Origin: Heliopora coerulea
Lineage: Eukaryota; Cnidaria; Anthozoa; Scleralcyonacea; Helioporidae
Direction: 5' to 3'
Length of the DNA stretch: 64,000 bases
NCBI GenBank assembly: GCA_030142905.1
Contig: JASJOG010000015.1
Coordinates: 1,183,001 to 1,247,000 of the forward strand
Shown here: one piece after another, positions 142 through 55,274 of the stretch
Layout of the letters: each line of letters starts with the position of its first letter
How positions within the stretch are numbered: position 1 is the first letter of the stretch
Position numbers and translations under genes: made by a program
Notes under the pieces: generated by a model
Databases searched by the model: none
Seen by the model: only the letters and a program-made list of their open reading frames with translations
What the model was told of the DNA's origin: nothing

Positions 142-3100
142 CTGAAAAGATGTGTACATGCAAAAGTCATGACTGATGTCGACATTATATTAAATGGACT
201 TAAGCGACAGGCGTCCATGAGTCAAGGAATGCAGTTGGGAGAACTGGTAAACCATGGACAGTTTAAGTAAAAGGCGCATTTGAATTTTGGACGGCGTATT
301 TATGGAATGTTTCCTTTACGCTCAGCACGACACGGTTTTGATTAGAGTTGTAATTAGGGCTAATTTTAGGGCTATGGTTGGTGTTAGGGTTAGCTGAGGT
401 GAAATCATGGTCAAACCGAACTAACTTGACAGTTACTGTGTAATATAGTTAAGATATTATCTTCTCAATTTTGCTCTCGTATTTTACTCGTATTTTTGGT
501 ACCAATTAAGAGGATTCTTTTCGGAATTTGTTTTTAACTTATCCTCAGTAAAGATGTCGCTAGAAATTGGATAATTCAAGTTGTATTTAGTAAATTTATA
601 ATTAATTTTAAGAGTAATGTTATTGACCCTTCAACTGGCCTTTATCGGGAAGGTTTCCACTTGACAAGTAAAATCGTCCGGCGTTTGACAAAGTAAAATA
701 TAATAAGTAGCAGAATGGCAATAGCGCTACATAAAGTGTTATATTAAACAACATACCAGAGGTTTGTTTTCTTTTTAACACGTGTAAATAAAAGGTTTTA
801 TAATCGTATCCCATGTTATTCCCGGCCATACATGTGTATTCCCTCTGGTCTGCAGACGAGACGTTTGGCAGAAACAATTTCACTCCATGCCACTTGTTCT
901 TTTTTGAAGGAAAAACATACTCGTGCTCTTTGAGTTTTGGTTTTAGCACTGTCATGTTTTGCTTCTCTCTGTCAAATATTAGCCACTGGAAATGAGGAGA
1001 ACCATCACTGATCCCATTGCATGTTACTGTCACGTTTTCGCCCTCATATGCCGTTACATTTTTAATTTCTTGCAAAATTGGCTTTGAAATGAGTCGTTCT
1101 ACAGGAAAAAAAGATTAATATACAGTGTTAGTAATGTGTCAGTTGAGGTCAATTTGAAGTAGTCAATAATTCATATTCTAATTACTAATGTAAAAAATGT
1201 TACCGCAAGTGGATTAACCCTAATATCACTACTCATCCCATGATAAGTTTATCGAAATTCCATAATAACCAACAATCTTTTTCCCCTTGCCAGGCCACAA
1301 CTGACTTGATCTGTCAAGATAGCTATCTATCTCTAATGCTGGCTCAGTGGTATTACTTCATGTTCAATTTAATTTAAAAACTTAAAACAAAAGCAATACC
1401 TACTCTCCATTACGGTTTGTAGTCAGAAAGTTTTCGATTAACGAACCTAGTTCTGCATTTTTATTTGTTGTTAAATCCTGTGAAAAATTATCGCATCAAA
1501 AAAGAGGCCCCGCTGTACAGAAAAAGAGTATGACTGCCGGATCACTTGACACCCAATCACCTTGCTTAATTGCGCCTTTATTTTATAATAGCAATAATAA
1601 TGTACATGAAAAAATTTATCGATTCTACTTGGCTAAGAGCAGTGCAATTTCAACGTAACAACGACAACGACATCAACAACAGCAATGAGTAACAACAATA
1701 ACAGCAATCATAACAATAACAGTAACAAAAACAACAGCAACAGCAATAACAACAATAACAATGCCAATGACAATAACAATAACAACAGCAGCAATTACAA
1801 TAACAACAGCAACAACAACAACAACGACAGCAACAACAACCACAACAATAACAACAACGACAACGGCAACAACAGCAACAACAACAATAACAACAACGAC
1901 AACAACAACAATAACAACAACAACGACAACGACAACAAAAATAACAATAACAACAGCAGCTATTACAACAAGTGCAACAACAAGTAGAAGAATTTAACCA
2001 CCGCAATAGTTACCTGTTACATCAAGTGTGTACGTTTTGTTGATATATCCCCACTTGTTGGATACGTTACAGGTGTATATGCCGCTGTCCGTTGGAATAA
2101 GCGATTTTATCACTATGTTGTATTGGTACGGTGAGATTGTTGACGATTCCCCTTTTATTCTCCTCAAAATCTTGCCATTCTTGTACCAAATAACCTTAGG
2201 GGTAGGATTGCCTTCCGCATTGCATATCATTCTCTCAGAATTTCCAGTAGGGACAACCAGAAGCTCTCTGTTCATTTTCTCTGGGTTGGTAAACTTTGGC
2301 TTTCTTTCTGAAAACACACGAACATCAAACTATTTAAGTTCACGCAGTCACTACTCCTTTTTCCTTTTGACAAGCTAGAAAATAAACTATTAATTAAAAT
2401 CATGAAAAGCACAATGACTGCGTTATCTGTCAAAGATATTGACAAACTGTTAAACGTTCTGGTAATCCAGACCTATATGTAAATTTTCCATTCTAGGAAC
2501 AAAAGTGTCCTGAGACATTGTCTCAAAACTTGGCTATGTTGTATCTACTGGACCCTGTCCAGGTTTACGGTGTTTTAGACAGCCTCATATCCCTGTAAAG
2601 TATCATTTATGTAAGACATCTAGACTGAAGCAAGTTGAATTGATTGGAGAAACATTCTGTTGTTTTTGTTTTGTTTTTTTTTTGCAACTAAATACTTTTT
2701 AATCATTTTCCAAACAATCTACTTTCGACAGCGTTTTCGAATATCTTAAAACCAACATATTTCAGCAAATATGCCAGCCAATTCCCAGAGCTCTATCCCG
2801 GTCAAAAGTGATTGGTACTGGAACAGCCGTCGCGTCTCACAACGACAAAAGACTTTCGTTTGAAACAGAAATATTTTCTATTTTAAGTTTGGCCACTTTC
2901 CTACCCCTTTTGGCAATTTATACGTCGTCCAACACTGCCTAGTCACCATTCTGCTTAAATACTTTTTGCCATTTATCAACGGCCATTTCCACGATGTCCA
3001 TGGGTAAATCTAAGCCATACAGTTACAAACTTGCGTGACCATATGTCATGATCATAGTGTGACTGACTTGAAGGAGCTACCAAGGAATGAATTAGCGTCT

Positions 3101-4418
3101 GACGCATATCTCACAAGTCAGACGCTATTTTACTGTTGACTCGGTTGACTTAATGTTAAATTTCTTAAAAATAAATTTCGCCAGTTGGGTTGGCAAAGTG
3201 GTAATGTAAAGAAGGGTTTATTCGTTGATTTACAATCGGCAAATAGTGAATAGAACAAGGATAGTCAACAAAATTGACGGATTTGTGATACTAAATGGTG
3301 AATTGCCACTAACATTCAATATGATGCAACTCTCTCCGCTCTTTCTGTGGTTCCATGCCCGCGCATTTATACCGCTGACAAAAAAATTAAAATTCAAAAT
3401 GACGGAAACTGGTTAGTAGACAGATATTTACAATCAGTTGGATGCGGATGTTTCCAGGTCTTCTGAATTTCGAGCGATAATGAATTAGTGAATTTTAAAC
3501 AGACAATATAGCTCAGGAGTGTCAAACTCGTACATTTTAATAGATAAACCACGTATATTGAAATTTGAAACATCAGTCATCAGGTGTACTTTTAAGTAGA
3601 AAATTTGTTGAACATTTTTAATATTTGATGCAATTACAAAAACAATAGGCTACGGATTCAATCTGAAGACGTTAAATTTACAGAGAGTTCTTTAATCTGT
3701 CATTTCTTCAACGGGTTCTTTTTAATTCTTTTTGTAAATGTGCAATGGGACATTTTTTTAGGCGGATAGTTTAATGAAGGTATAGAAGTATATTTATATT
3801 TGAATATTTTATATATCTACTGTAGACTGCATTATCGTTCATTTACCTTCATTTGTCCTATTGACAGATAGTGGATCGACTGGAAAAAAAAAGAGAAAAA
3901 AAATTGAATTATTGTTGAATGATGTTCGAAGAAATTTGAACATGTTCAAACTTTTGTTCAACATGCGTTCAACATTGCTACTCATCTTGCCGACCGTGGA
4001 ATATGTATGTGTTTGGCCGTCCCTGACTTCAACATCTTTCAACATCGTCCAAAAATGTTGAAAGCGTTTGACCGGGGTTTAAACAATAGCACTAGTAACA
4101 GTAGCAGTTACTGTAGTAAGGAGCAGCACCTACCAGTGACGTATAAATGCATTGTATGTGAAATTCTTCCTGCCTTGTTTGATGCAAAACAAGTGTAATC
4201 ACCAGCATCCGACAGCTTCACGTTTCTGATTTTCAAGTAACGAAATTGTTTGTAACGGAATTTCTTTTTTGTAGTATCTAGAACTTGATGGTCATGCTTT
4301 TGCCACCAATATTGTGTGTCCTTGGGAGCTACCACTTGACATATTAACTTTATCTCTTTCTCGCCGACAAACGCAGAGTGATTTGCGTAAGTACGTTTGA
4401 ACCGCGGAGGGTTAAGAT
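1..4418 (-). CDS. Gene A: FGFR-like receptor ectodomain plus transmembrane exon (partial)
   Basis: Five exons are visible on the minus strand, all joined in phase 1: D1 4418-4134, 33-nt linker 3879-3847, D2 2307-2014, D3 1098-757 and a transmembrane exon 141-1 cut by the window edge. Each has an AG acceptor and a GT donor. D2 carries the FGFR-like run TNPEKMNREL...NPTPKVIWYKNGK and D3 carries KPILQ...SDGSPHFQW, both matching the known layout of FGFR Ig2 and Ig3. D1 sits where FGFR Ig1 does. The protein should be a type I membrane receptor binding FGF-type ligands outside the cell (inference). Its kinase or other cytoplasmic part would lie before position 1 and is not seen. I found no signal-peptide exon upstream of D1, so the 5' end is unknown; the gene may be complete with a distant first exon, or 5'-truncated. 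Reading frames of all exons are open. Confidence 0.8.
757..1098 (-). CDS. Gene A, Ig domain D3 exon
   Basis: This 342-nt phase 1-1 exon encodes one Ig domain. The first cysteine is in VTVTCNG, the core tryptophan in HFQWL and the second cysteine in EYTCMAG. It resembles FGFR Ig3, which with Ig2 forms the FGF-binding surface in known receptors. The protein differs from the gene B1 D3 exon (31559-31900) at only two residues (SKKN/SKNN and NNMG/NNVG). Several N-glycosylation sequons are present (NVT, NMT, NVS). Confidence 0.85.
1655..1985 (+). repeat. Imperfect AAC/AAT trinucleotide repeat
   Basis: About 330 bases are built from AAC, AAT, AGC and GAC triplets, in the D2-D3 intron of gene A. The inverted copy at 30545-31005 is about 130 bases longer, so the tract changed length after the duplication. 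Long asparagine-, threonine- or cysteine-rich frames through it are artefacts of the repeat. Confidence 0.95.
2014..2307 (-). CDS. Gene A, Ig domain D2 exon
   Basis: This 294-nt phase 1-1 exon encodes an Ig domain closely patterned on FGFR Ig2, the FGF- and heparin-binding domain: TNPEKMNREL, GNPTPKVIWYKNGK and DSGIYTCNVSN. The cysteine pair and tryptophan are intact. It differs from the gene B1 copy (30230-30523) at 11 of 98 residues, far more than D3 does. A long imperfect AAC/AAT repeat lies about 30 bases beyond its donor, inside the next intron. Confidence 0.85.
3847..3879 (-). CDS. Gene A, 33-nt linker microexon between D1 and D2
   Basis: A polypyrimidine tract and CAG acceptor precede exactly 33 nt, followed by the donor GTAAAT. 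In phase 1 it reads VDPLSVNRTNE, which contains an NRT glycosylation sequon. It lies between D1 and D2, where vertebrate FGFRs carry the acid-box linker, but it is not acidic. Two related 33-nt sequences occur on the plus strand (28668-28700 and 32228-32260), which argues that it is a real, duplicated exon. It could be optional, since skipping it keeps the frame. Confidence 0.65.
4134..4418 (-). CDS. Gene A, Ig domain D1 exon
   Basis: This 285-nt phase 1-1 exon begins DLNPPRFKRTYANHS and holds an Ig domain with cysteines in IKLICQVV and DYTCFAS and tryptophans in QYWWQKHD. In the FGFR layout this is Ig1, which in known receptors is autoinhibitory. It differs from the B1 copy by about seven residues. 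It is the most upstream exon of gene A that I can support. Confidence 0.85.
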
Positions 4419-7078
4419 CTACGAAAGAGAAAGGAATAATTAATTGGTAGGATGGTGAATCAACTTAAACGACAAAAAGAGAGAGCACGAGAGTGTATTT
4501 GGATTTCTCGGAACACAGCAGAATACAGAGGTAAGTCATAAGAATCAAGTAAGTCATAAGTCTTAACACCACTACGAAAGATAATTTAAACCTAATTTTA
4601 CGTCAATTTTCGCCTAAAATACCAGTTTGTTTAAAAATCAATGTAAAACATTTGAGAGAATCGAAAGGTAAAATCAGTTGGTATGCATAAACAGTTCCCC
4701 ATTTTCAATTTTTAAACTAGATTAACTGATATTATTTATCGATTGCAATTTGCTACCACCTCGTTACGTGACCACTTTTAATTTTTGAGAGAATGATTGA
4801 TTTAGACATTTGATGCGAGAACGTTTCACAATGCGATTGGAAAGCTCGGCCACAGCTCGCTTTTGCCGCACACTATTTTAGTTTTCTGATATCACAGCGA
4901 AACATTCCAACTCGTGCTTCGCGTATGACTTATGCGTTTGGCTTTCCATTTTTTATCACTGTTTTTGCGGGGGTTTTTTGCATTGTCTCAATTTCCCATT
5001 TGAAACAAAAAACGAATCAAAAACATTGCATGAAACGATGTCGATTTGCGAGTATCTTTTAATCGCTACGTACGCCATATGAGTAAGATGTCGTGCTTAA
5101 ACAGAACAACTGTCAAGCAGACATTACAACCTCAAGTGATAAACCAGACGGATTTTCAAATTTCCACTGCCTCGACGCTAAACGTGAGAGAAATTGTTCT
5201 CGCATTCGGGCGCTTGCACTTCATCGCATTAAAACTGATCCAATCTACGTATGACATTCACCTTTTCTGTATTCATTGGAATTGAATACTGGAATCGGGG
5301 CAACAAAATGCGAATCCGATATTATTTCATCAGTTTTTATAATTTCACATCTGATTCGTGTTTACGACGTCATGGGCTCGGCTGTTGAAATTCGCTGGAC
5401 TGTATCTGAGAGCATCCGGAATTCTAAGTTTTGAAATTTCCGGCGGATTCACGAACCGACCTGAAGATTTCGTCTGTTAAGTCTTTCTAAGCAAACTCTT
5501 AATATGTTTTAGGCCATTCTGATTGACCAATTCAAAACAAAATTCATATTCTCCACACGCATTTCTTGGCAATTTTAATTCTGTGCAACTAAATTTGTGG
5601 TATGGACTGAAAATCATGCACATTTCTGGAAAAAAGCCGTTTAGTTGAACTTGTTTTGTTGGTGTGAAGGGTGTGTAAAGACACGTAGGTTCTCCTGAGT
5701 GCCATTTATGGTGGCAACAAGTCCAACGCGATTCTGCCTAGTTCGTTGAATTCATCGTGGATACCACATATGAGCAGTAACACTTGATATCAAGTTACCC
5801 CAGTCCCATTCTCTTCAACTAAACCTGCTGGAATTAAAGTCGGGTATTTTGGTAGGTCAGACTCCGAGGCACCGATGGTGAAGTGTTAAATTAGCGACGG
5901 CCTGGAGAATTTTACTGCTCTTCGGAGCTTCTTGACAGCATGAGGGATATGTCAGTAAGTACGTTGCGGACGTTTATTTCCGAGGACAAACATTACACAA
6001 ACTCATTTAAGCTGAAGGCTTTCAAATCTTCTGACCGGCAATGACTCATGTATGATTAGCATGTAACCAGGGCCGAAGTCATTACTGAGGCATCAAAAAT
6101 TGGGTTTCTTTCTATGACACACAGGTGTATTATAAAGGTTCATCACAATTATCAAACTATCAGAGTAAGCGATTAAACAATCTCTGTTGCTCACTATTTT
6201 GTTCTTATATGGTCACTTTTGCTCATTTCTGACTGAGGGGAAAAAAATGGTAAACTTCAGTGAAAGGAACGTTGGCATAATTTCTTATTTCTTGGCTAGC
6301 CTTGCATGAACGGCCGCTACCGTTCTTCATCACAAACCTCACACATCCTTCATCTGTGTCATTGCATTCATTCCATCATCATTTTCTGGCATTCAGTACT
6401 CCTGTTCTTAAGTTAGGTTAGGATTCGCGTCAGGAGAAAGGAATATTTGTAAGCTCCTCTCGAAACATGAATAAGCTACCCTTTCTTTTGATGTCATGTG
6501 GGATACATCTCACACCAAGTGCTTCTGTCACTTTTTAGTCCCCATATACCACATCCTTACAATGTTTTACACTTTGGCCCGATTGTTTCAAAGTCTCCCA
6601 CGGTACATATCTGTTTTAGGATCTAAAAGCAACGAAACGACTTGTTCATCGCCAAGTAACAGCATCTAAAACAACCGATAATTGCGTGTGACATCGCCTT
6701 TTTTCATAATTGAGGAGAGGCCGTAAAAACCCAACGTTAAGATATCATTGAGGTTTGAAGTCTAAATCATGCCAGCTACAATCTTCGCGGCCCGATGAAC
6801 TTATTTGTCAGTCTACATCTCGTAATGTATTAGAAATCTCTTGTGACCGCGGCGCTACTCAGTTATTCAGTAAAAGCTTTACCAAAAGCTTATACTTGCG
6901 TCCACTTCTTGGGAACGGTTGAGAAATTACTTTGTTTCCGGATATTCTATACTGTAATCCTATCCATCAGGAAATCTTGCTGCAGACTTGTTTTTTGAGT
7001 AACAGAAAATCGCGGAAACCATTACCTGGGCCGAGTAAAAGCTATTTGAGAACAATGTCATTAAGGTCACACACGCTG

Positions 7079-26220: not shown

Positions 26221-29200
26221 GTGAGATCAATTTCAAACGTTGTTAGTTACTGTTATTTACGTTCAGAGGTGATCCGCTTGCGTTGACGGCTGTTATTACA
26301 GTAATTACATTTTAGCCAACTCCAGATTGAAACAAACTGATACATCGCCCACTTTTTATTTCAATTTTTTTCCCTTTAGATCGAGTCATTTCAAAGCCAG
26401 TTTTGCAAGAAATTAAGAATATAACGGCATATGAGGGAGAAGACGTCACAGTCACATGCAAGGCGATCAGTGACAGTGGTTCTCTTTTTTTCCAGTGGCT
26501 GGTATTTGACAAAGTGAAGCAAAACATAAAAGTGCTAAAACCGAAACTCGAAGAGCACGAGTATGTGTTTCCTTCAAAAAATAACAAGTGGCATGGAGTG
26601 AAATTGTTTCTGCCAAAGGTTTCGTTTGCTGACCAGAGGGAATACACATGTTTTGCCGGAAATTACGTTGGATACGATTATAAAACGTTTTACTTACATG
26701 TGTTACGAAGAAAACGAGCCACTGGTATGTTGTTCAATTTAACACACGTAGCGCTGTTGCAATTCTGCTACTTATTATATTTTACTCTGTCTAACACCAG
26801 ATGATTTTCCTCGTCAAATGGATACTTTCCGGAAAATTGCCCCTTAGGGGCCATTTATACGATCCTGGATTGGCGCCCAACCCGGGTTAGCTTGCCAACC
26901 AGGGTCAACCCGTCTACGAATCAACTGCTGTTTGCGTTTACACGATATCCGGGCCAATCCTAGCCTGCGGTGCACAAGCGTCTGCACCGGCAGGCTAGGT
27001 CAAACCGTCTTGCCAGGTTACCCGCTTTAAGACCCAGGTCGACCCGGGTTGGCCAGGTGTGAAGGTGTCAAATTTTTGTCAATTTTCCCATGTAAACACA
27101 GGTTGACTTGACTCGGGCTCGTGTAAAGTGTCGGCACTACGATAGTCTTGGTTAGTTTTCATTTTTTCGCGTCAAGCCAAAGTTGTAGTTTATGTTGTCC
27201 GTCTGCTGGAAGCATGGCAAGTTCGAGCGCTCACAAAGAAAAACCTCGTTTACGTCTGTGGTCGAGCGCAAAGGTCGAATACTTGATTGTCTCTCTCGAA
27301 GACTACAAATCTGAGATGAATTATAAAAACATCGACTTCTTTTCGACGTGATTGCGCTGTTTTCTGGCATACGCAAACGTATGGCGATTAAATCTGTGGT
27401 TGAACTGCCAAACAAATGACAAGAATTGAAGAGGCCGAAAGAACATGTTTACGGCGTCTATCAGAATGGCTCGGGTCAACCTGGGTTGAACAGTCCTGAC
27501 CCGGGTTGGAAAAACATATCTCAAATAACATCCAGCCCGGAGTTCATGTAAACATGAAAAAAGAAAGACTAAAGGTGGTGAGCTGACCCGAGTTGGAAGT
27601 CAACGCGGGCTCGTGTAAACGGCCCCTTAAAGGGTTAATAATATGTTTAGTAAATACCATTTGAATTATCCAATGCCTAGCCACTACTATACTGAGCTGT
27701 GGCCGAGCTTTCCAATCGCATTTCGAAGTGTTCTAACATCAAATGAATCAATCATCCTCTCGAACGTTAAAAGTGTTCATGTTGCGAGGTGGTAGCAAAT
27801 TGCAATCGATAAATAATATCAGTTAATCTAGTTTAAAAATTGAAAATGGGAAACTGTTTATGCATACCAACTGATTTTACCTTTCGATTCTCTCAACTGT
27901 TTTACATTGATTTTTAAACAAACTGGTATTTTAGGCGAAAATTGACGTAAAATTGGGTTTAAATTATCTTTGGTAGTGGTGTTAAGACTTATGACTTACT
28001 TGATTCTTATGACTTACCTCTGTATTCTGCTGTGTTCCGAGAAAACCAAATACACTCTCGTGCTCTCTCTTTTTGTCGTTTAAGTTGATTCACCATCCTA
28101 CCAATTAATTATTCCTTTCTCTTTCGTAGATCTTAACCCTCCGCGGTTCAGACGTACTTACGCAAATTACTCTGCGTTTGTCGGCGACAGAGAGATAAAG
28201 TTAATATGTCAAGTGGTAGCTCCCAAGGACTCACAATATTGGTGGCAAAAGCATGACCATCAGGTTCTAGATATTAGAAAAAAGAAATTCCGTTACAAAC
28301 AATTTCGTTACTTGAAAATCAGAAACGTGAAGCTGTCGGATGCTGGTGATTACACTTGTTTTGCATCAAACAAGGCAGGAAGAATTTCACATACAATGCA
28401 TTTATACGTCACTGGTAGGTGCTGCTCCTTACTACAGTAACTGCTACTGTTACTAGTGCTATTGTTTAAACCCCGGTCAAACGCTTTCAACATTTTTGGA
28501 CGATGTTGAAAGATGTTGAAGTCAGGGACGGCCAAACACATACATATTCCACGGTCGGCAAGATGAGTAGTAATGTTTAACGCATGTTGAACAAAATTTT
28601 GAACATGTCCAAATTTCTTCGAACATCATTCAACAATAATTCAATTTTTTTATCTTTTTTTTTTTAGTCAATCCACTATCTGTCACTTGGAAAAATGAAG
28701 GTAACTGAACGATAATAAAGTCTACAGTAGATAAACAAAATATTCAAATATAAATATACTTCTATACCTTCATTAAACTATCCGCCTAAAAAATGTCCCA
28801 TTGCACATTTACAAAAAGAATTAAAAAGAACCCGTTGAAGAAATGACAGATTAAAGAACTCTCTGTAAATTTAACGTCTTCAGATTGAATCCGTAGCCTA
28901 TTGTTTTTGTAAATGCATCAAATATTAAAAATGTTCAACAAACTTTCTACTTAAAATTACACCTGATGACTGATGTTTCAAATTTCAATATACGTGGTTT
29001 ATCTATTAAAATGTACGAGTTTGACACTCCTGAGCTATATTGTCTGTTTAAAATTCACTAATTCATTATCGCTCGAAATTCAGAAGACCTGGAAACATCC
29101 GCATCCAACTGATTGTAAATATCTGTCTACTAACCAGTTTCCGTCATTTTGAATTTTAATTTTTTTGTCAGCGGTATAAATTCGCGGGCATAGAACCACA

Positions 29201-32200
29201 GAAAGAGCGGAGAGAGTTGCATCATATTGAATGTTAGTGGCAATTCACCATTTAGTATCACAAATCCGTCAATTTTATTGACTATCCTTGTTCTATTCAC
29301 TATTCGCCGATTGTAAATCAACGAATAAACCCTTCTTTACATTACCACTTTGCCAATCCAACTGGCGAAATTTATTTTTAAGAAATTTAACATTAAGTCA
29401 ACCGAGTCAACAGTAAAATAGCGTCTGACTTGTGAGGTGTGAGTCAGACGCTAATTCATTCCTTGGTAGCTCCTTCAAGTCAGTCACACTATGATCATGA
29501 CATATGGTCACGCAAGTTTGTAACTGTATGGCTTAGATTTACCCATGGACATCGTGGAAATGGCCGTTGATAAATGGCAAATAGTATTTGTGCAGAATGG
29601 TGACTAGGCAGTGTCGAACGACGTATAAATTGCGAAAAGGGGTAGGAAAGTGGCCAAACTTAAAATAGAAAATATTTCTGTTTCAAACGAAAGTCTTTTG
29701 TCGTTGTGAGACGCGACGGCTGTTCCAATACCAATCACTTTTGACCGGGATAGAGCTCTGGGAATTGGCTGGCATATTTTCTGAATTATGTTGGTTTTAA
29801 GGTATTCGAAAACGCTGTCGAAAGTGGATTGTTTGGAAAATGATTAAAAAGTATTTAGTTGCAAAAAAAAAAACAAACGGAATGTTTCTCCAATCAATTC
29901 AACTTGCTTCAGTCTAGATGTCTTACATAATTGATACTTTACAGGGATATGAGGCTGTCTAAAACACCGTAAACCTGGACAGGGTCCAGTAGATACAATA
30001 TAGCCAAGCTCTGAGACAATGTGTCAGGACATTTTTGTTCCTAGAATGGAAAATTTACATATAGGTCTGGATTACCAGAACGTTTAACAGTTTGTCAATA
30101 TCTTTGACAGATAACGCAGTCATTGTGCTTTTCATGATTTTAATTAATAGTTTATTTTCTAGCTTGTCAAAAGGAAAAAGGAGTAGTGACTGCGTGAACT
30201 TAAATAGTTTGATGTTCGTGTGTTTTCAGAAAGAAAGCCAATGTTTACCAGCCCAGAGAAAATGAACAGAGAGCTTCTGGTTATCCCTACTGGATATTCT
30301 GCGAAAATGATATGCGATGCGGAAGGCAATCCTACTCCTACGGTTATTTGGTACAAGAATGGCAAGATTTTGAGGAGAATAAAAGAGGAACCGTCAACAA
30401 TCTCACCGTACCAATACAACATAGTGATAAAATCGCTTATTCCAGCGGACAGCGGCATATACACCTGTAACGTATCCAACAAGTGGGGATATATCAACAA
30501 AACGTACACACTTGATGTAACAGGTAACTATTGCGGTGGTTAAATTCTTCTACTTGTTGTTGCACTTGTTGTAATTGCTGCTGTTGTTATTGTTATTGTT
30601 CTTTTTGTTGTTGTCGTTGTTGTTATTGTTGTTGTTATCGTTGTTTTTGTTGTTGCTGTTGTTGCCGTTGTCGTTGTTGTTGCTGCTGTTATTATTGTTA
30701 TTTTTTGTTGTTGTTATTATTGCTGTTGGTGTTGTTGTAGTCGTCATTATTGTTGTTGTTATTATTGTTGTTGTTATTATTGTTGTTGTTATTATTGTTG
30801 TTGTTATTATTGTTGTGGTTATTGTTGCTGTCGTTGTTGTTGTTGCTGTTGTTATTGTTATTGTCATTGGCATTGTTATTGTTGTTATTTTTATTATTGT
30901 CGTTGTTATTGCTGTTGCTGTTGCTTTTTGTTGCTGTTATTGTTATGATTGCTGTTATTGTTGTTACTCATTGCTGTTGTTGATGTCGTTGTCGTTGTTA
31001 CGTTGAAGTTGCACTGCTCTTAGCCAAGTAGAATCGATAAATTTTTTCATGTACATTATTATTGCTATTATAAAATAAAGGCGCAATTAAGCAAAGTGAT
31101 TGGGTGTCAAGTGATCCGGCAGTCATACTCTTCTTCTGTACGGCGGGGCCTTTTTTTTGATGCGACAATTTTTCACAAGATTTAACAACAAATAAAAATG
31201 CAGAACTAGGTTCGTTAATCGAAAACTTTGTGACTACAAACCGTAATGGAGAGTAGGTATTGCTTTTGTTTTAAGTTTTTAAATTAAATTGAACATGAAG
31301 TAATACCACTGAGCCAGCATTAGAGATAGATAGCTATCTTGACCGACCAAGTCAGTTGTGGCCTGGCAAGGGGAAAAAGATTGTTGGTTATTATGGAATT
31401 TCGATAAACTTATCATGGGATGAGTAGTGATATTAGTGTTAATCCACTTGCGGTAACATTTTTTACATTAGTAATTAGAATATACATTATTGACTACTTC
31501 AAATTGACCTCAACTGACACATTACTAACACTGTATATTAATCTTTTTTTTCCTGTAGAACGACTCATTTCAAAGCCAATTTTGCAAGAAATTAAAAATG
31601 TAACGGCATATGAGGGCGAAAACGTGACAGTAACATGCAATGGGATCAGTGATGGTTCTCCTCATTTCCAGTGGCTAATATTTGACAGAGAGAAGCAAAA
31701 CATGACAGTGCTAAAACCAAAACTCAAAGAGCACGAGTATGTTTTTCCTTCAAAAAATAACAAGTGGCATGGAGTGAAATTGTTTCTGCCAAACGTCTCG
31801 TCTGCAGACCAGAGGGAATACACATGTATGGCCGGGAATAACGTGGGATACGATTATAAAACCTTCTATTTACACGTGTTAAAAAGAAAACAAACCTCTG
31901 GTATGTTGTTCAATTTGCGCTGCTCTTAACCAAGTAGAATTGATAAATTTTTTCATGTACATTATTATTGCTATTATAAAAGAAAGGCGCAATTAAGCAA
32001 GGTGATTGGGTGTCAAATGATCCGGAAGTCATACTCTTTTTCTATACGGCGGGGCCTCTTTATTGATGCGATAATTTTTCACAGGATTTAACAACAAATA
32101 AAAATGCAGAGCTAGGTCAGTTAATCGAAAACTTTCTGACAATAAATCGTAAGGGAGAGTAGGTATTGCTTTAGTTTTAAACTTTTAAGTCAAATTTAAC

Positions 32201-50550: not shown

Positions 50551-51780
50551 CAGGTTTCTAAATCCAATAGAACTTAGTATTGGAATGAAGAGGATTCCGA
50601 GTGAACGCCGTCGGTTCTTTTTGTAAACCGCTCAACTTGCTAATACCTGTACTGCCGGTTGATACCGAAGACAGCGTGGAACACGTCGAGTGAACAGGGT
50701 CATGCCTGATGTCCTGGTTCGCCGGTAATTGTTTTCGAAACGAAGCGTTAAACGTCAAATGAACAGTCAGGATTTTTTTGAAATCCAAATCACGAATGTC
50801 CTTGTGTTATTATTGGCATCCGATCTGTTTCCTATGGAAAACATACTTCTTGAAATTTGTAATGCAGCATTAGTTGGCACTTTTGCCAGAAATCCATTTT
50901 CTTCCACGCTGCAGATCTTTTCACCGTGATGGCGCAAGCTACCAGGCTGAGGTTTTTTTTTCTTTGAAGTTACAGGTAGTCTATTCCTTGACGTACAAGC
51001 AGAAATCCAGCGTTCATATGCGCTTTAGCGCGATATCCATTTTTACCCGTCTTTCTCGTATTAAAAAAGGCTGACGTAAAGTTTATCGGAAAATCAACTT
51101 GACCTTCATTTACGTTGAAATGAAAGATGTTCACTTGGAAAGGACATGCTGAAGCGACGATCAGCGATTGTACTCCACGACCTTGATCCTCATCCAAGAA
51201 CGGGTCACCGTAAAAGCATCCCTCAGTAAAATTTGAGCACATTTTTCGGACGCAACCATATAAAATATTGAAGTTACGTGGCTACACTTCATCATGCAGA
51301 CGGGTTGTGTCGAAAACAAGTACACGGTTACGTGGCTTACACTATCATCACTTCCATGTTTCCTTACAAACTATACTTTATCATGTTCCATGGAGAACAA
51401 AAGTTTACCCAATTTAACATCACAAAGATTAAAAAAAAACAAAGCTCGTTTTACTCGGACTATAATAGCGCTAGATTTAATGTAATTATTTTTAACAGTG
51501 TTTTCCTCTCAATATTAAAGATAAATAATATAATAAATTTTTATAACTTCCAACAAAGCAGTGTGTAATTATCCTAACTTGGAAGTTGTGTTGTTGTCTT
51601 CTTGCCAATAACATTCGTTCGTACTTCTCTAACTTAACTGGTGACGATTTTGTCCACAAGTTGCACGCAAAATTACGCAGTTCTAAGTAAACGCTCCCTT
51701 AGCGTTCTGGCTCAGCGTACCATCCTGCCTACGCTCCACAAACACTTCTCTTGGTCGAACAGTTAACACAAAAGAATTAT
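50551..51780 (+). other. 3' flank of gene B2
   Basis: There is no further domain after the TAA at 50548. This is probably the 3' UTR. The first AATAAA lies at 51532-51537, about 980 bases on. Short frames here have no recognisable content. Confidence 0.4.
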
Positions 51781-51788
51781 TTCCAATG

Positions 51789-51822
<34 letters not shown>

Positions 51823-51866
51823 TATATATGTACGTATGTATGTATGTATGTATGTATGCATTGGAA
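51781..51866. repeat. Palindromic CATA/TATG microsatellite hairpin
   Basis: The tract opens TTCCAATGCATACATACA and closes TGTATGTATGCATTGGAA, with (TA)n and GTAC in the middle, so it is an inverted repeat 86 bases long with unique-sequence ends included in the arms. Confidence 0.9.
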
Positions 51867-52467
51867 ATATGTAATCATCAAACATAATTACTTGTATAAC
51901 TTTGTACAGCTGAAAAAGTCATGCCAACAAACACAAACGAGAACATGGACATATTGTTATTCCAAACACCTCTACTAAATTTGTTGTTAATAATTAGCAT
52001 GTCAGATTATTAGCTTGTAATTCAAAGATTGATCAGGAGATCATTTTAGTCCAATGTCACATCTGTCTAGCTGAAATCTATTTGAGTTTTCAATGGCTCC
52101 AAAAGAAAACTACAGTACAATGATGGCTGTAGTTGCTGAAGTATCAATTATTATATCTTGGAAACAATTCCCCAAACTATGTCCAATTTTCATCCAAATT
52201 GAAAGAGGTGAAACAGCACAATTCTTTTAAATCAAATAATTTCAAGGCTATTTCAAGACAAGTCTCAGTTATGATGGAAAAAGAAAAACAATATAAGTTA
52301 TGTGATCTTCACCTCTTTCATCAAACTAATGGTTTACTATGCACTCCCCCCTTTCAGAACAAATTTGACTGAAGAGATTTGACCAGCCACTGGCAGGAGC
52401 ATGGAAAAGAGCCTGGGTAAGAGAGTGGTATGGTTTGATTTTTAGAACATGTGTATGTATATACACA

Positions 52468-52511
52468 GTTGCCTGATGATCGCTTAGCAGCGTGAAACTT
52501 TAAGTAGCAAC
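52468..52511 (+). ncRNA. Hammerhead-ribozyme-like motif 1
   Basis: Stem I GTTGC pairs with GCAAC. The core CTGATGA is at 52473-52479. Stem II CGCT pairs with AGCG around loop TAGC. GAAA follows at 52494-52497. Stem III ACTT pairs with AAGT across one base (or ACT/AGT with a 3-base loop). The cleavage triplet is GTA. This is the type I arrangement known from animals. A T-T mismatch at the base of stem II could weaken it. Confidence 0.55.
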
Positions 52512-52627
52512 GTAAAGGACATTTTTAGTTAACATTTGTATTATGCTCTACCAGCCCTGGTATTGAGCACTCTATTCACGTTGATTTGGAATAACCATAT
52601 ACCTATATACATATATATATATATATA

Positions 52628-52780
52628 AGTAAAATAGGCAAAATTTTTTGCTGTCGCTACTCTGAGTTTCACATACTCAGGTGATCATCAGGCAACTGAC
52701 AGAATCTGTCAGTTGCCTGATGATCACCTGAGCACGTAAAACTCAGAGTAGCGACAGCAAAAAATTTTATCTATTTTACT
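52628..52780. mobile_element. Palindrome of two facing hammerhead-like motifs
   Basis: Two 75-base arms (52628-52702 and 52706-52780) are inverted copies with a 3-base centre. The minus-strand motif in the left arm (52696-52653) keeps CTGATGA, GAAA, stem I with one G-T pair, and stem III ACTC/GAGT. The right-arm motif (52712-52755) has AAAA in place of GAAA, so it lacks a required catalytic base. Confidence 0.8.
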
Positions 52781-52861
52781 TCTTTATTCACTCTACTGGT
52801 ATGGTATTGAGCACTCTTCATTTTCAAACCAACACTGCAACCTTCCTGGTCCTCACCTTTG

Positions 52862-52867
<6 letters not shown>

Positions 52868-52902
<35 letters not shown>

Positions 52903-52945
52903 CATACATACATACATACATACATACATACATACATACATACAC
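52868..52945 (+). repeat. (TA)n followed by (CATA)n microsatellite
   Basis: Uninterrupted TA then CATA repeats between motifs 2 and 3 of the cluster. Confidence 0.95.
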
Positions 52946-53026
52946 ATGTCAAAACTGGAAACAAGATATTGGCTGAAGGATATAGAGTGCTTAATACTTA
53001 AAGAGTAGAGCTGTATGCAATTATCA

Positions 53027-53070
53027 GTTGCCTGATAATCGCATCAATAAGTGAAACTCTGAGTAGCAAC
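53027..53070 (+). ncRNA. Decayed hammerhead-like motif 3
   Basis: Stem I GTTGC/GCAAC, GAAA and stem III ACTC/GAGT are kept, but the core reads CTGATAA instead of CTGATGA and stem II does not pair well. It is probably inactive. Confidence 0.45.
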
Positions 53071-53182
53071 AGATGACACTTTAAGTTAACTCTACTATAT
53101 ATATATATACCTAGAAAGTGTTATGGAGCAGTTATTTGTGTCTAAGTTGAAACACAAGATTTTGACTGGTGCACAGCCTTAT

Positions 53183-54301
53183 TTAACTTCCCAATCTGGT
53201 TGTATTTAATGTTGTTGGTGTTGTTTTGTTAAACTGCTTGGATATGCCCACGAAGCCATGAATTGGAGACTTCCCTGAACATAGATCATGGCTAAACTTC
53301 ACAGTGATGTTGGTGTTCCTGACTGGATAGCAAATTTGACCTTTGTTGTAACAGTAGTTCACCCTATACTCCAGTTTTTTGGATTCCTTTGTGAAAATCA
53401 GGGTGAAGACAACAGAGCTGCAGTTGAAGGATTCCTGGTCACCTAGAAAATGGCTTGAACCTCCTTTGCTTTGTGGATTGCAAGGTATCTCCTTAACCAG
53501 AGTTCTATTTGATTTAACCAAGTCCTTAACTGTTGAAATTTCAACAGACTGCATCTGGCCACGTTCGTTTACTGCAAGCACATGTGGGACGTCCACTTCT
53601 GAGTGCTGTATTATGTCAGCCAATGTTGTAATATTAAGAGCAAATAGTCCTAACGCTAGAGTAGTTCCAAAAATACACAAAGCCACACAGCAATCAAGTG
53701 ATGGCTCTGAATCATAGCAAGGTGAAAAGCACGATGGATATTTTCTGGGAAGAGAATCTCGCTTTCTGAACCAAACGTATGCTCCTTTGAAGAAGGTATA
53801 GCCAGCGACGAAAAGGCTGAGTGTAATGCATACAAACAGACTGACTTTCCAGAAACTGTAGACAACCGAGCATCTTACAATGTAATAATAGAGAACGATA
53901 CTTTGGATGGAATCCTCAAAGCAAACCTGGCAGAACAGGCAAACAAAAACAATCAGCTGACCAAGCTTTGTGGTGTTGTGTTTCTCTGTTCGGTGACTTC
54001 TGAACGATTTTGACAATCCAACAATGATAAGGATGTACCCAACTGAACTTATCAAAGCACAGACAACGCTAACAATCAGACTGAAGAAAAAGGCGCGATA
54101 AACGCTTTCATTTCGCGAGCTGACGTCTAAGGAATCTCCTCGAGAATATTGGTAAACATTCATGCCGTCACTGACACAGTCGTAAAATTCATATGTGATC
54201 CTAAGAAGGTAGAAGATGTACTGGACTACAGGCTTCAATCTCAAGATCACTGCGCCAAGCGAGCGACCAGCGTTCCGAAAACTCGCATCGACTTCATCCA
54301 T
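53183..54301 (-). CDS. Gene C: multi-pass membrane protein, unrecognised
   Basis: A single open exon of 372 residues, from ATG at 54301. Hydrophobic segments lie at about 70-96, 113-142, 151-178 and 204-231, with a possible further one near 26-40. After the last helix comes a hydrophilic region of about 140 residues with five cysteines (274, 294, 317, 324, 341) and five N-glycosylation sequons (265, 293, 331, 358, 366), so it should face outside or a lumen. The segments EFYDCVSDGMNVYQY and CFEDSIQSIVLYYYI recall the D..SD and E..PQ motifs of XK-family scramblases, but only loosely. An acceptor-like TTCAG sits directly before the ATG, so an upstream 5' UTR exon is possible. It is convergent with gene B2 and divergent from gene D. 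I cannot assign a function. Confidence 0.8.
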   Translation of the reverse strand: MDEVDASFRNAGRSLGAVILRLKPVVQYIFYLLRITYEFYDCVSDGMNVYQYSRGDSLDVSSRNESVYRAFFFSLIVSVVCALISSVGYILIIVGLSKSFRSHRTEKHNTTKLGQLIVFVCLFCQVCFEDSIQSIVLYYYIVRCSVVYSFWKVSLFVCITLSLFVAGYTFFKGAYVWFRKRDSLPRKYPSCFSPCYDSEPSLDCCVALCIFGTTLALGLFALNITTLADIIQHSEVDVPHVLAVNERGQMQSVEISTVKDLVKSNRTLVKEIPCNPQSKGGSSHFLGDQESFNCSSVVFTLIFTKESKKLEYRVNYCYNKGQICYPVRNTNITVKFSHDLCSGKSPIHGFVGISKQFNKTTPTTLNTTRLGS

Positions 54302-55274
54302 CTGAATTAGAGAATTCCAACGTCCTTCTCAAAATAAAAAAAATGATCAGCAGAAACAAGTCACATCGCAATGGGAGTTGATATTTGAATGTATTGCAAA
54401 CTAAGCAATATTCCATTTGAACACCGCGCGAGTTACGCACGAATTACGCGGGAGTAAATTATAATTTTCCCGAAATGTCCCGTTGACTTAAAAATGAAAT
54501 TATGATTCGTGCTGAGCAAAAGACTTTTTATTGATCAACAGAAGACGTTAACAGTTAAAAATGAGAAGAAGGAATTGTCCGAAAAAGGTAAAATATTTTA
54601 CGTTTCTTCTGCCGAGTATTAATCTTGTATTTGCCTCGCGGGATACACACGAGCAGTGTTGATAGGTTATTAATAAATATCAGTCATTACATCACAACAA
54701 CAGACTGTACCTGCGGTTTAATATGCTCAATATATTTCTTAGTTTCAATGACTGAAAATTCTTTGATTTGACTCGATGGCTCGAAGACTTGGTATGGTGA
54801 CTGGAACTCTGAATTGAAATGGAGAACATTTCTGTGGATTTTAATGGTACGAAATCTAGTATAATTTTTTGCAACGTGAGGGGTAATGAGATTTGGCGAT
54901 TCATGTTCACTCGAACAGGTTTAACGTATGGATATTGTTTGTCATACAGAGAGAGTTTTCCTTTGTTTTGAACGCCAATCTAACTGCACATGTTTTAAAG
55001 GAGTTTTTAACTTCCTTTTTAACTACTTCTGTTCATATTTACCCACGATTACCTTTGCATTTCAAGCAAAGTAAAATGGTTTGTGACGTGTCATCTTCAG
55101 ACGAATTCTCGCTTACTGTTCTAATTTTGACTATGTTCTGGTTCTAACGTCCGTGAGAATATACAATGCCCATTAATCGAACAGTTCTTTACTGCTTATT
55201 TTAGTGTTAAATAACCCAGATTTAAAAGAAGAATAACTAGTGGATCCACCGGCTCCATAACTAACATACGTATC
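54302..55274. other. Shared upstream region of genes C and D
   Basis: About 970 bases separate the divergent start codons of C and D. It is AT-rich and has no recognisable coding or repeat content. A bidirectional promoter is plausible; I found no clear TATA element in a decisive position. Confidence 0.4.

Follow-up and report, generated by a model that had tools for sequence, protein, structure and literature searches.

The question raised by positions 52468-53070 of this window, the whole 64-kb stretch of DNA that was analysed, is whether the hammerhead-ribozyme-like motifs found there are real and, if so, what kind of element they were once part of.

Motif copies and core letters

Four related hammerhead-like copies of 44 nt each, three on the + strand and one on the - strand, were found inside 52468-53070. 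Their positions are those at which the earlier note had placed three same-strand motifs and an inverted one, and their features are as follows.

52468-52511, + strand: HH1, with all core letters (CTGATGA at 52473-52479 and GAAA at 52494-52497); stem I GTTGC/GCAAC, stem II CGC/GCG with a U.U at its base, stem III ACT(T)/(A)AGT; predicted cut after A52506
52696-52653, - strand: HH2, inverted, with all core letters; stem I GTTGC/GCGAC, stem II of two pairs only; predicted cut after 52658 on the - strand
52712-52755, + strand: HH3, with AAAA in place of GAAA at 52738-52741; stem II down to one pair; predicted cut after 52750
53027-53070, + strand: HH4, with CTGATAA in place of CTGATGA at 53032-53038 (second G lost); stem II down to one pair; predicted cut after 53065

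The layout of the copies is GTTGC, CTGATGA, a stem II region of 14 nt, GAAA, stem III, A and GC(A/G)AC. Stem III is a palindrome-like segment of 9 nt, counted from the last A of GAAA, and GTA precedes the predicted cleavage point in the motif copies. The type I core order (CUGANGA ... GAAA ... NUH, open at stem I) was observed to be complete in two of the four copies, HH1 and HH2; only one core had previously been described as intact, and the inverted copy has to be added to it. In HH3 and in HH4 one essential G is missing, which agrees with the base losses reported for them earlier.

A profile built from the four copies gave 49.0-56.3 bits for HH1-HH4 when run against the window, where the next best match reached 4.7 bits. 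No fifth copy of the family was found in the 64 kb by this profile search, nothing else scoring above 4.7 bits. HH1-HH4 form a single homologous repeat family and are therefore not four independent observations. Exact-pattern scans for relatives gave no matches in viral or prokaryote contig collections, a result that says little about animal copies.

Chance expectation

The strict scan was defined by an intact core, an NUH site, a stem I of 5 bp and a stem III with at least 2 inner bp, and 240 dinucleotide shuffles served as its control. Two matches were observed in the window against a shuffle mean of 0.025 and a shuffle maximum of one, a single match being found in 6 of the 240 shuffles. As the copies are homologous, they are better counted as about one independent match, with 0.025 expected. 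With one core mismatch permitted, the window gave five matches compared with a shuffle mean of 0.45 and a maximum of four. The fifth of these matches, at 52136-52183, lies outside the HH1-HH4 family and is probably due to chance. The stemless pattern CTGANGA...GAAA...GTAG was found twice against a mean of 0.17, and 2 of 100 shuffles also reached two; this control gives weaker support than the one with stems. Hammerhead-like motifs are real in this window.

Matches to RNA families

No Rfam family matched at gathering thresholds anywhere in the 64 kb. The covariance-model search that the earlier note had proposed as a check was negative for the Rfam hammerheads at the gathering threshold, and the best of them was HH1 against Hammerhead_HH9 (RF02275), which aligned the core letters and scored 12.8 bits against a threshold of 52 (E 0.65). 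Small-window Rfam searches at E 10 returned no hammerhead match for HH2 or HH3 and no match at all for HH4.

When the region 50-56 kb was searched at E 10, 51 matches were obtained and none of them was a hammerhead. Nearly all of these are miRNA-precursor models that align to the long inverted repeat or to CATA/TATA microsatellites; we rejected them as structure-only matches below threshold. The CTGATGA box resembles the C box of box C/D snoRNA. Box C/D snoRNA was rejected as well, with three small-window matches at 10.2-10.8 bits and a fourth at 6.3 bits, all far under threshold. Two further snoRNA matches at E 10 in 50-56 kb (19.0 and 18.4 bits) lie outside the motifs and are also far under threshold.

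Conservation and covariation of the stems

In the four-copy alignment, stem I is paired in 20 of 20 cells, stem III in 16 of 16 and stem II in 7 of 12, and four of the 16 stem III cells represent a pair that is formable only between copies. The U.U at the base of stem II was observed in all four copies. Two-sided changes were found at two pairs: one in stem II, which is G-C in HH1 and A-U in HH2, and one in stem III, which is U-A in HH1 and C-G in the other copies. The second of these had been put forward, as ACTT/AAGT in one copy and ACTC/GAGT in the other three, to argue for selection on RNA structure. The exchange was confirmed with HH1 as the differing copy, but it supports selection less than had been stated: 59 of 500 shuffles matched this level of covariation. 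Covariation across the four copies is suggestive only and does not rise above the shuffle control.

The position of the covarying stem III pair bears on how it could form. ACT and AGT can pair within a single copy around a loop of 3 nt. The fourth, covarying pair is impossible within one copy and can form only between two, because a single nucleotide separates its partners.

Invariant columns make up 34 of the 69 in the four-copy alignment, with 30 of 44 in the motif and 4 of 25 in the flanks. Loop II is the most variable part of the motif, with changes at 5 of its 6 positions. Stem II has 3 variable positions among 6, and the 2 among 6 in stem III are those of the covarying pair; the core (2 of 10) and stem I (1 of 10) change little. 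BLAST among HH1, HH3 and HH4 gave 73-80% identity over 49-113 nt. For the five older copy pairs, from which HH2-HH3 is left out, gapped identity was 0.77-0.86 in the motif and 0.53-0.90 in the flanks. Random 50-mers gave a median of 0.68 and a 95th percentile of 0.82, so that the motif values fall on both sides of this percentile and one flank stands at 0.90. Read in register, the motif looks like the best-kept part of the copies, but four are too few to prove selection. Of the 83 positions compared between HH2 and HH3, 7 differ, three of them within the motif (in loop II, in stem II and at G12). These two copies are the youngest-looking pair, and the pattern of their differences fits neutral decay.

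Layout of the array

The features between and around the copies are listed below.

52621-52703, - strand: left arm of an inverted repeat, 83 nt, carrying HH2
52705-52787, + strand: right arm of the inverted repeat, 83 nt, carrying HH3
52507-52750, + strand: interval between the HH1 and HH3 cut sites, 244 nt; part of a unit plus the inverted copy, not a clean unit
52751-53065, + strand: the only clean unit between same-strand predicted cut sites, 315 nt, from HH3 to HH4
52791-52817, + strand: 5' side of a hairpin in the 315-nt unit, 7 + 15 bp with 53004-53010 and 52984-52998
52984-53010, + strand: 3' side of this hairpin in the predicted fold, upstream of HH4
53071-53110, + strand: start of a further, truncated unit, ending in a TA run

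The two arms of the inverted repeat are 92% complementary and are separated by 1 nt, which places HH2 and HH3 head to head. Whichever strand of the array is folded, the arms are predicted to make one long hairpin that would sequester HH2 and HH3. A chance-translation probe of the inverted repeat against a protein database gave no candidate.

A TA/CATA microsatellite (about 52865-52944) enlarges the 315-nt unit. The z of the unit in a circular fold was -4.46 (100 shuffles), and -3.22 with the microsatellite removed, where 1 of 200 shuffles was as low; 57% of its nucleotides are predicted to be paired and its GC is 0.336. The 244-nt interval gave a z of -16 with 75% of nucleotides paired, a strong pairing that is due to the inverted copy. 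The 16-mer TGGTATTGAGCACTCT occurs at 52802-52817 and again at 52558-52573, at an equal distance after HH3 and HH1, and most of it is located within the 5' side of the hairpin in the 315-nt unit. The longest stop-to-stop frame listed over the array is of 89 aa and runs through the microsatellite.

At the edges of the array, TATATAC, which occurs at 52458 and 53104 within TA-rich sequence, is the sole exact word of at least 7 bases that the two flanks have in common. It is too weak a candidate, and no clear target-site duplication was found in the flanks. An inverted-repeat DNA transposon was rejected, since the end copies HH1 and HH4 are direct and there is no clear target duplication. Elsewhere in the window, a palindrome was observed at 51778-51869 with CATA/TATG-repeat arms of 46 nt that are 96% complementary, the left arm starting with TATTTCCAATG.

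Predicted folding of single copies and pairs

The predicted minimum-energy fold of all four copies is not the hammerhead but another, imperfect hairpin. Its competing stem TCRC/GTGA is paired in 15 of 16 cells of the four copies compared with 7 of 12 for the hammerhead stem II, and within the minimum hairpin itself all four pairs of this stem are present in HH1, HH2 and HH4 and two in HH3. The hairpin minimum lies below the hammerhead fold, taken with a stem III of 3 bp, by about 4 kcal/mol in HH1, 14 in HH2, 11 in HH3 and 10-11 in HH4. In the predicted ensemble of HH1, the competing stem (0.45-0.47) comes close to the hammerhead stem II (0.49-0.51), with stem I at only 0.07-0.08 and stem III at 0.02.

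Pairs of copies were also modelled as double hammerheads. HH1 with HH1 gave zero mispairs and -15.8 kcal/mol, and the other nine pairings of the four copies gave 2-4 mispairs and -6.2 to -9.7 kcal/mol. The HH1 double hammerhead nonetheless lies above the predicted minimum, as two separate HH1 minima come to -16.2 and the free cofold to -21.8 kcal/mol. In these models, the covariation would fit an ancestral dimer of like copies and not the present mixture of copies.

A further idea, which we regard as quite improbable, is that this octocoral family is an obligate-dimer hammerhead, with a palindromic stem III (ACTYNRAGT) that covaries between copies and a conserved U.U. A head-to-head pair of copies would then give one hammerhead per strand, and RNA of either sense might be processed.

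Origin of the array

We consider it probable that about 52465-53110 is what decay has left of a small tandem mobile element that carried type I hammerheads and was of the same kind as the non-LTR retrozymes of metazoans, in a genome that resembles those of octocorals. The sequence shows where the motifs lie, in what order and at what spacing, that two copies have lost core bases, and that HH2 and HH3 form an inverted head-to-head duplication; the folds show a predicted self-pairing of the unit. Tandem hammerhead repeats of the kind known from metazoan retrozymes, which the earlier note had suggested, remain the best explanation. A simple tandem arrangement was not borne out, with HH2 head to head with HH3, and the support is weaker than had been claimed in respect of the covariation, the Rfam result and the damage to two of the four cores.

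Animal retrozymes are reported to give circles of about 170-400 nt from repeats of 150-450 bp with a GC under 45-50% (PMC7229834), and both the length of the 315-nt unit and its GC of 0.336 are inside these published figures. Between HH3 and HH4 there is one hammerhead-bounded tandem unit within about 150-450 bp; the 244-nt stretch from HH1 to HH3 holds an inverted copy. The low GC (below 45-50%) and the longest frame of 89 aa are also in keeping with the non-coding nature of metazoan non-LTR retrozymes.

Those described from Acropora millepora, Mytilus galloprovincialis and Ambystoma mexicanum (PMC7229834) share with the array a type I core whose stem III is short and weak, multiple copies that follow each other at intervals of a few hundred bp, a low GC, a lack of evident coding capacity and a unit predicted to pair with itself. 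The array differs from them in that it has just four copies, of which two are damaged in the core and one is inverted head to head, and in that its stem II is very weak. The stony coral Acropora millepora, for which over 6000 hammerhead motifs are reported, 1508 of them canonical (PMC7229834), also differs as a host from the octocoral-like host of the array. Metazoan retrozyme RNAs are described as being over 70% paired (PMC4918200), whereas the 315-nt unit is 57% paired.

Similar structural features are published for HHR_Amex2 of the axolotl: as in the array, stem II has a U.U mismatch at its base and stem III is very short. It is reported to self-cleave weakly alone and better as dimeric constructs (PMC7229834). 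Its stem III has two pairs and a tetraloop, whereas the array palindrome leaves one nucleotide between fully paired halves; the comparison is one of structure features and not of sequence relation. A dimeric mechanism in which the stem III strands pair together has been reported for the newt and avocado sunblotch viroid motifs (PMC6155905).

For the time when the family was active, we infer cleavage, a dimer, circle formation and retrotransposition. Every copy in a read-through transcript would have offered a GUA for cleavage. Given how short stem III is, and that it is a palindrome, cleavage probably went best in a double hammerhead, with two copies pairing their stem III and stem I strands. 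The units set free, each a few hundred nucleotides long, would have been circularised and then reverse-transcribed by another element. Efficient present-day cleavage at the array is unlikely as judged from the models, because HH1 is the only copy that combines an intact core with a stem II of three pairs and a position outside the 83-nt hairpin, and because the HH1 core in a double hammerhead would act on the cut site of its partner copy.

Alternative origins

Instead of coming from a non-autonomous retrozyme, the motifs could derive from a Penelope-like element (PLE) whose coding part is gone, as minimal type I hammerheads of its pseudo-LTRs. PLE hammerheads are described as minimal and tandem and may act as dimers, so that the minimal form, the tandem arrangement and the proposed dimer action are all common to them and the array. 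The short stem III of the array copies would agree with such an origin, as would the TA runs in which the copies end, since the Penelope endonuclease reportedly prefers AT-rich DNA. Minimal hammerheads of Penelope-like elements are said to have been covered by Cervera and de la Pena in 2014 and by Lunse et al. in 2017. However, PLE hammerheads are usually without helix III nucleotides, whereas the array has the palindrome-like stem III of 9 nt. In addition, the cut sites are just 244 and 315 nt apart, and no reverse-transcriptase or GIY-YIG Pfam match was obtained at E 0.01 in the six frames of about 47-57 kb. A PLE origin is therefore considered unlikely.

The predicted folds raise another explanation, in which the copies are hairpin-forming remnants of some other element, such as a miniature inverted-repeat transposon, and resemble hammerheads by chance. 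The 83-nt inverted repeat would agree with such remnants, the imperfect hairpin is the predicted minimum of all four copies, and TCRC/GTGA is better kept than the hammerhead stem II. The lack of a hammerhead at Rfam thresholds and the 2 of 100 shuffles that equal the window in the loosest control point in the same direction. Against this, intact-core matches with stems number two in the window and 0.025 in shuffles, the end copies are in direct orientation and no target-site duplication is clear. On the alignment, the competing hairpin also gives no account of why TGA, AAAC and the final bases of stem I's 3' strand are conserved. We judge this explanation to be very unlikely.

Neighbouring genes

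An ORF on the - strand at 53183-54328 has 16 database matches, of which the best is 99% identical and the 15 others are 47-66% identical; the match to the octocoral Paramuricea clavata is at 57% identity. From this one gene, the host is probably an octocoral. The single-exon ORF gave no Pfam match. Its product looks by eye like a membrane protein, and it could be specific to octocorals or cnidarians. The array is located downstream of this gene, the closer end of it lying about 70 nt beyond the stop codon at 53183, and the intact-core HH2 (52653-52696, - strand) could be inside the 3' untranslated region. That HH2 is a domesticated regulatory element there and cuts the messenger is extremely improbable: it is sense to the gene, about 490-530 nt past the stop codon, and hammerheads in the 3' UTR of rodent Clec2 genes are a reported precedent (PMC6155905), but HH2 has a stem II of two pairs and sits within the 83-nt hairpin, and three of the four copies are antisense to the gene.

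Immunoglobulin-like exons were observed in two sets of opposite orientation, at 620-4464 (- strand) and 26331-31929 (+ strand), and their translations are nearly identical by eye, for example 4108-4464 on the - strand and 28084-28440 on the + strand. These opposed sets suggest that receptor-like genes were duplicated in inverted orientation. On the + strand, tyrosine kinase matches were found at about 48.0-48.5 kb.

Implications

Hammerhead repeats have been published for stony corals, jellyfish and anemones (PMC7229834, PMC4918200). No octocoral case was found in our literature search, with most subscription journals and supplements outside its coverage. The locus looks like a decayed relic of the retrozyme kind. 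If this is confirmed, the hammerhead repeats known from stony corals, jellyfish and anemones would extend to octocorals, and the locus would offer a family whose stem III is testable for action between copies.
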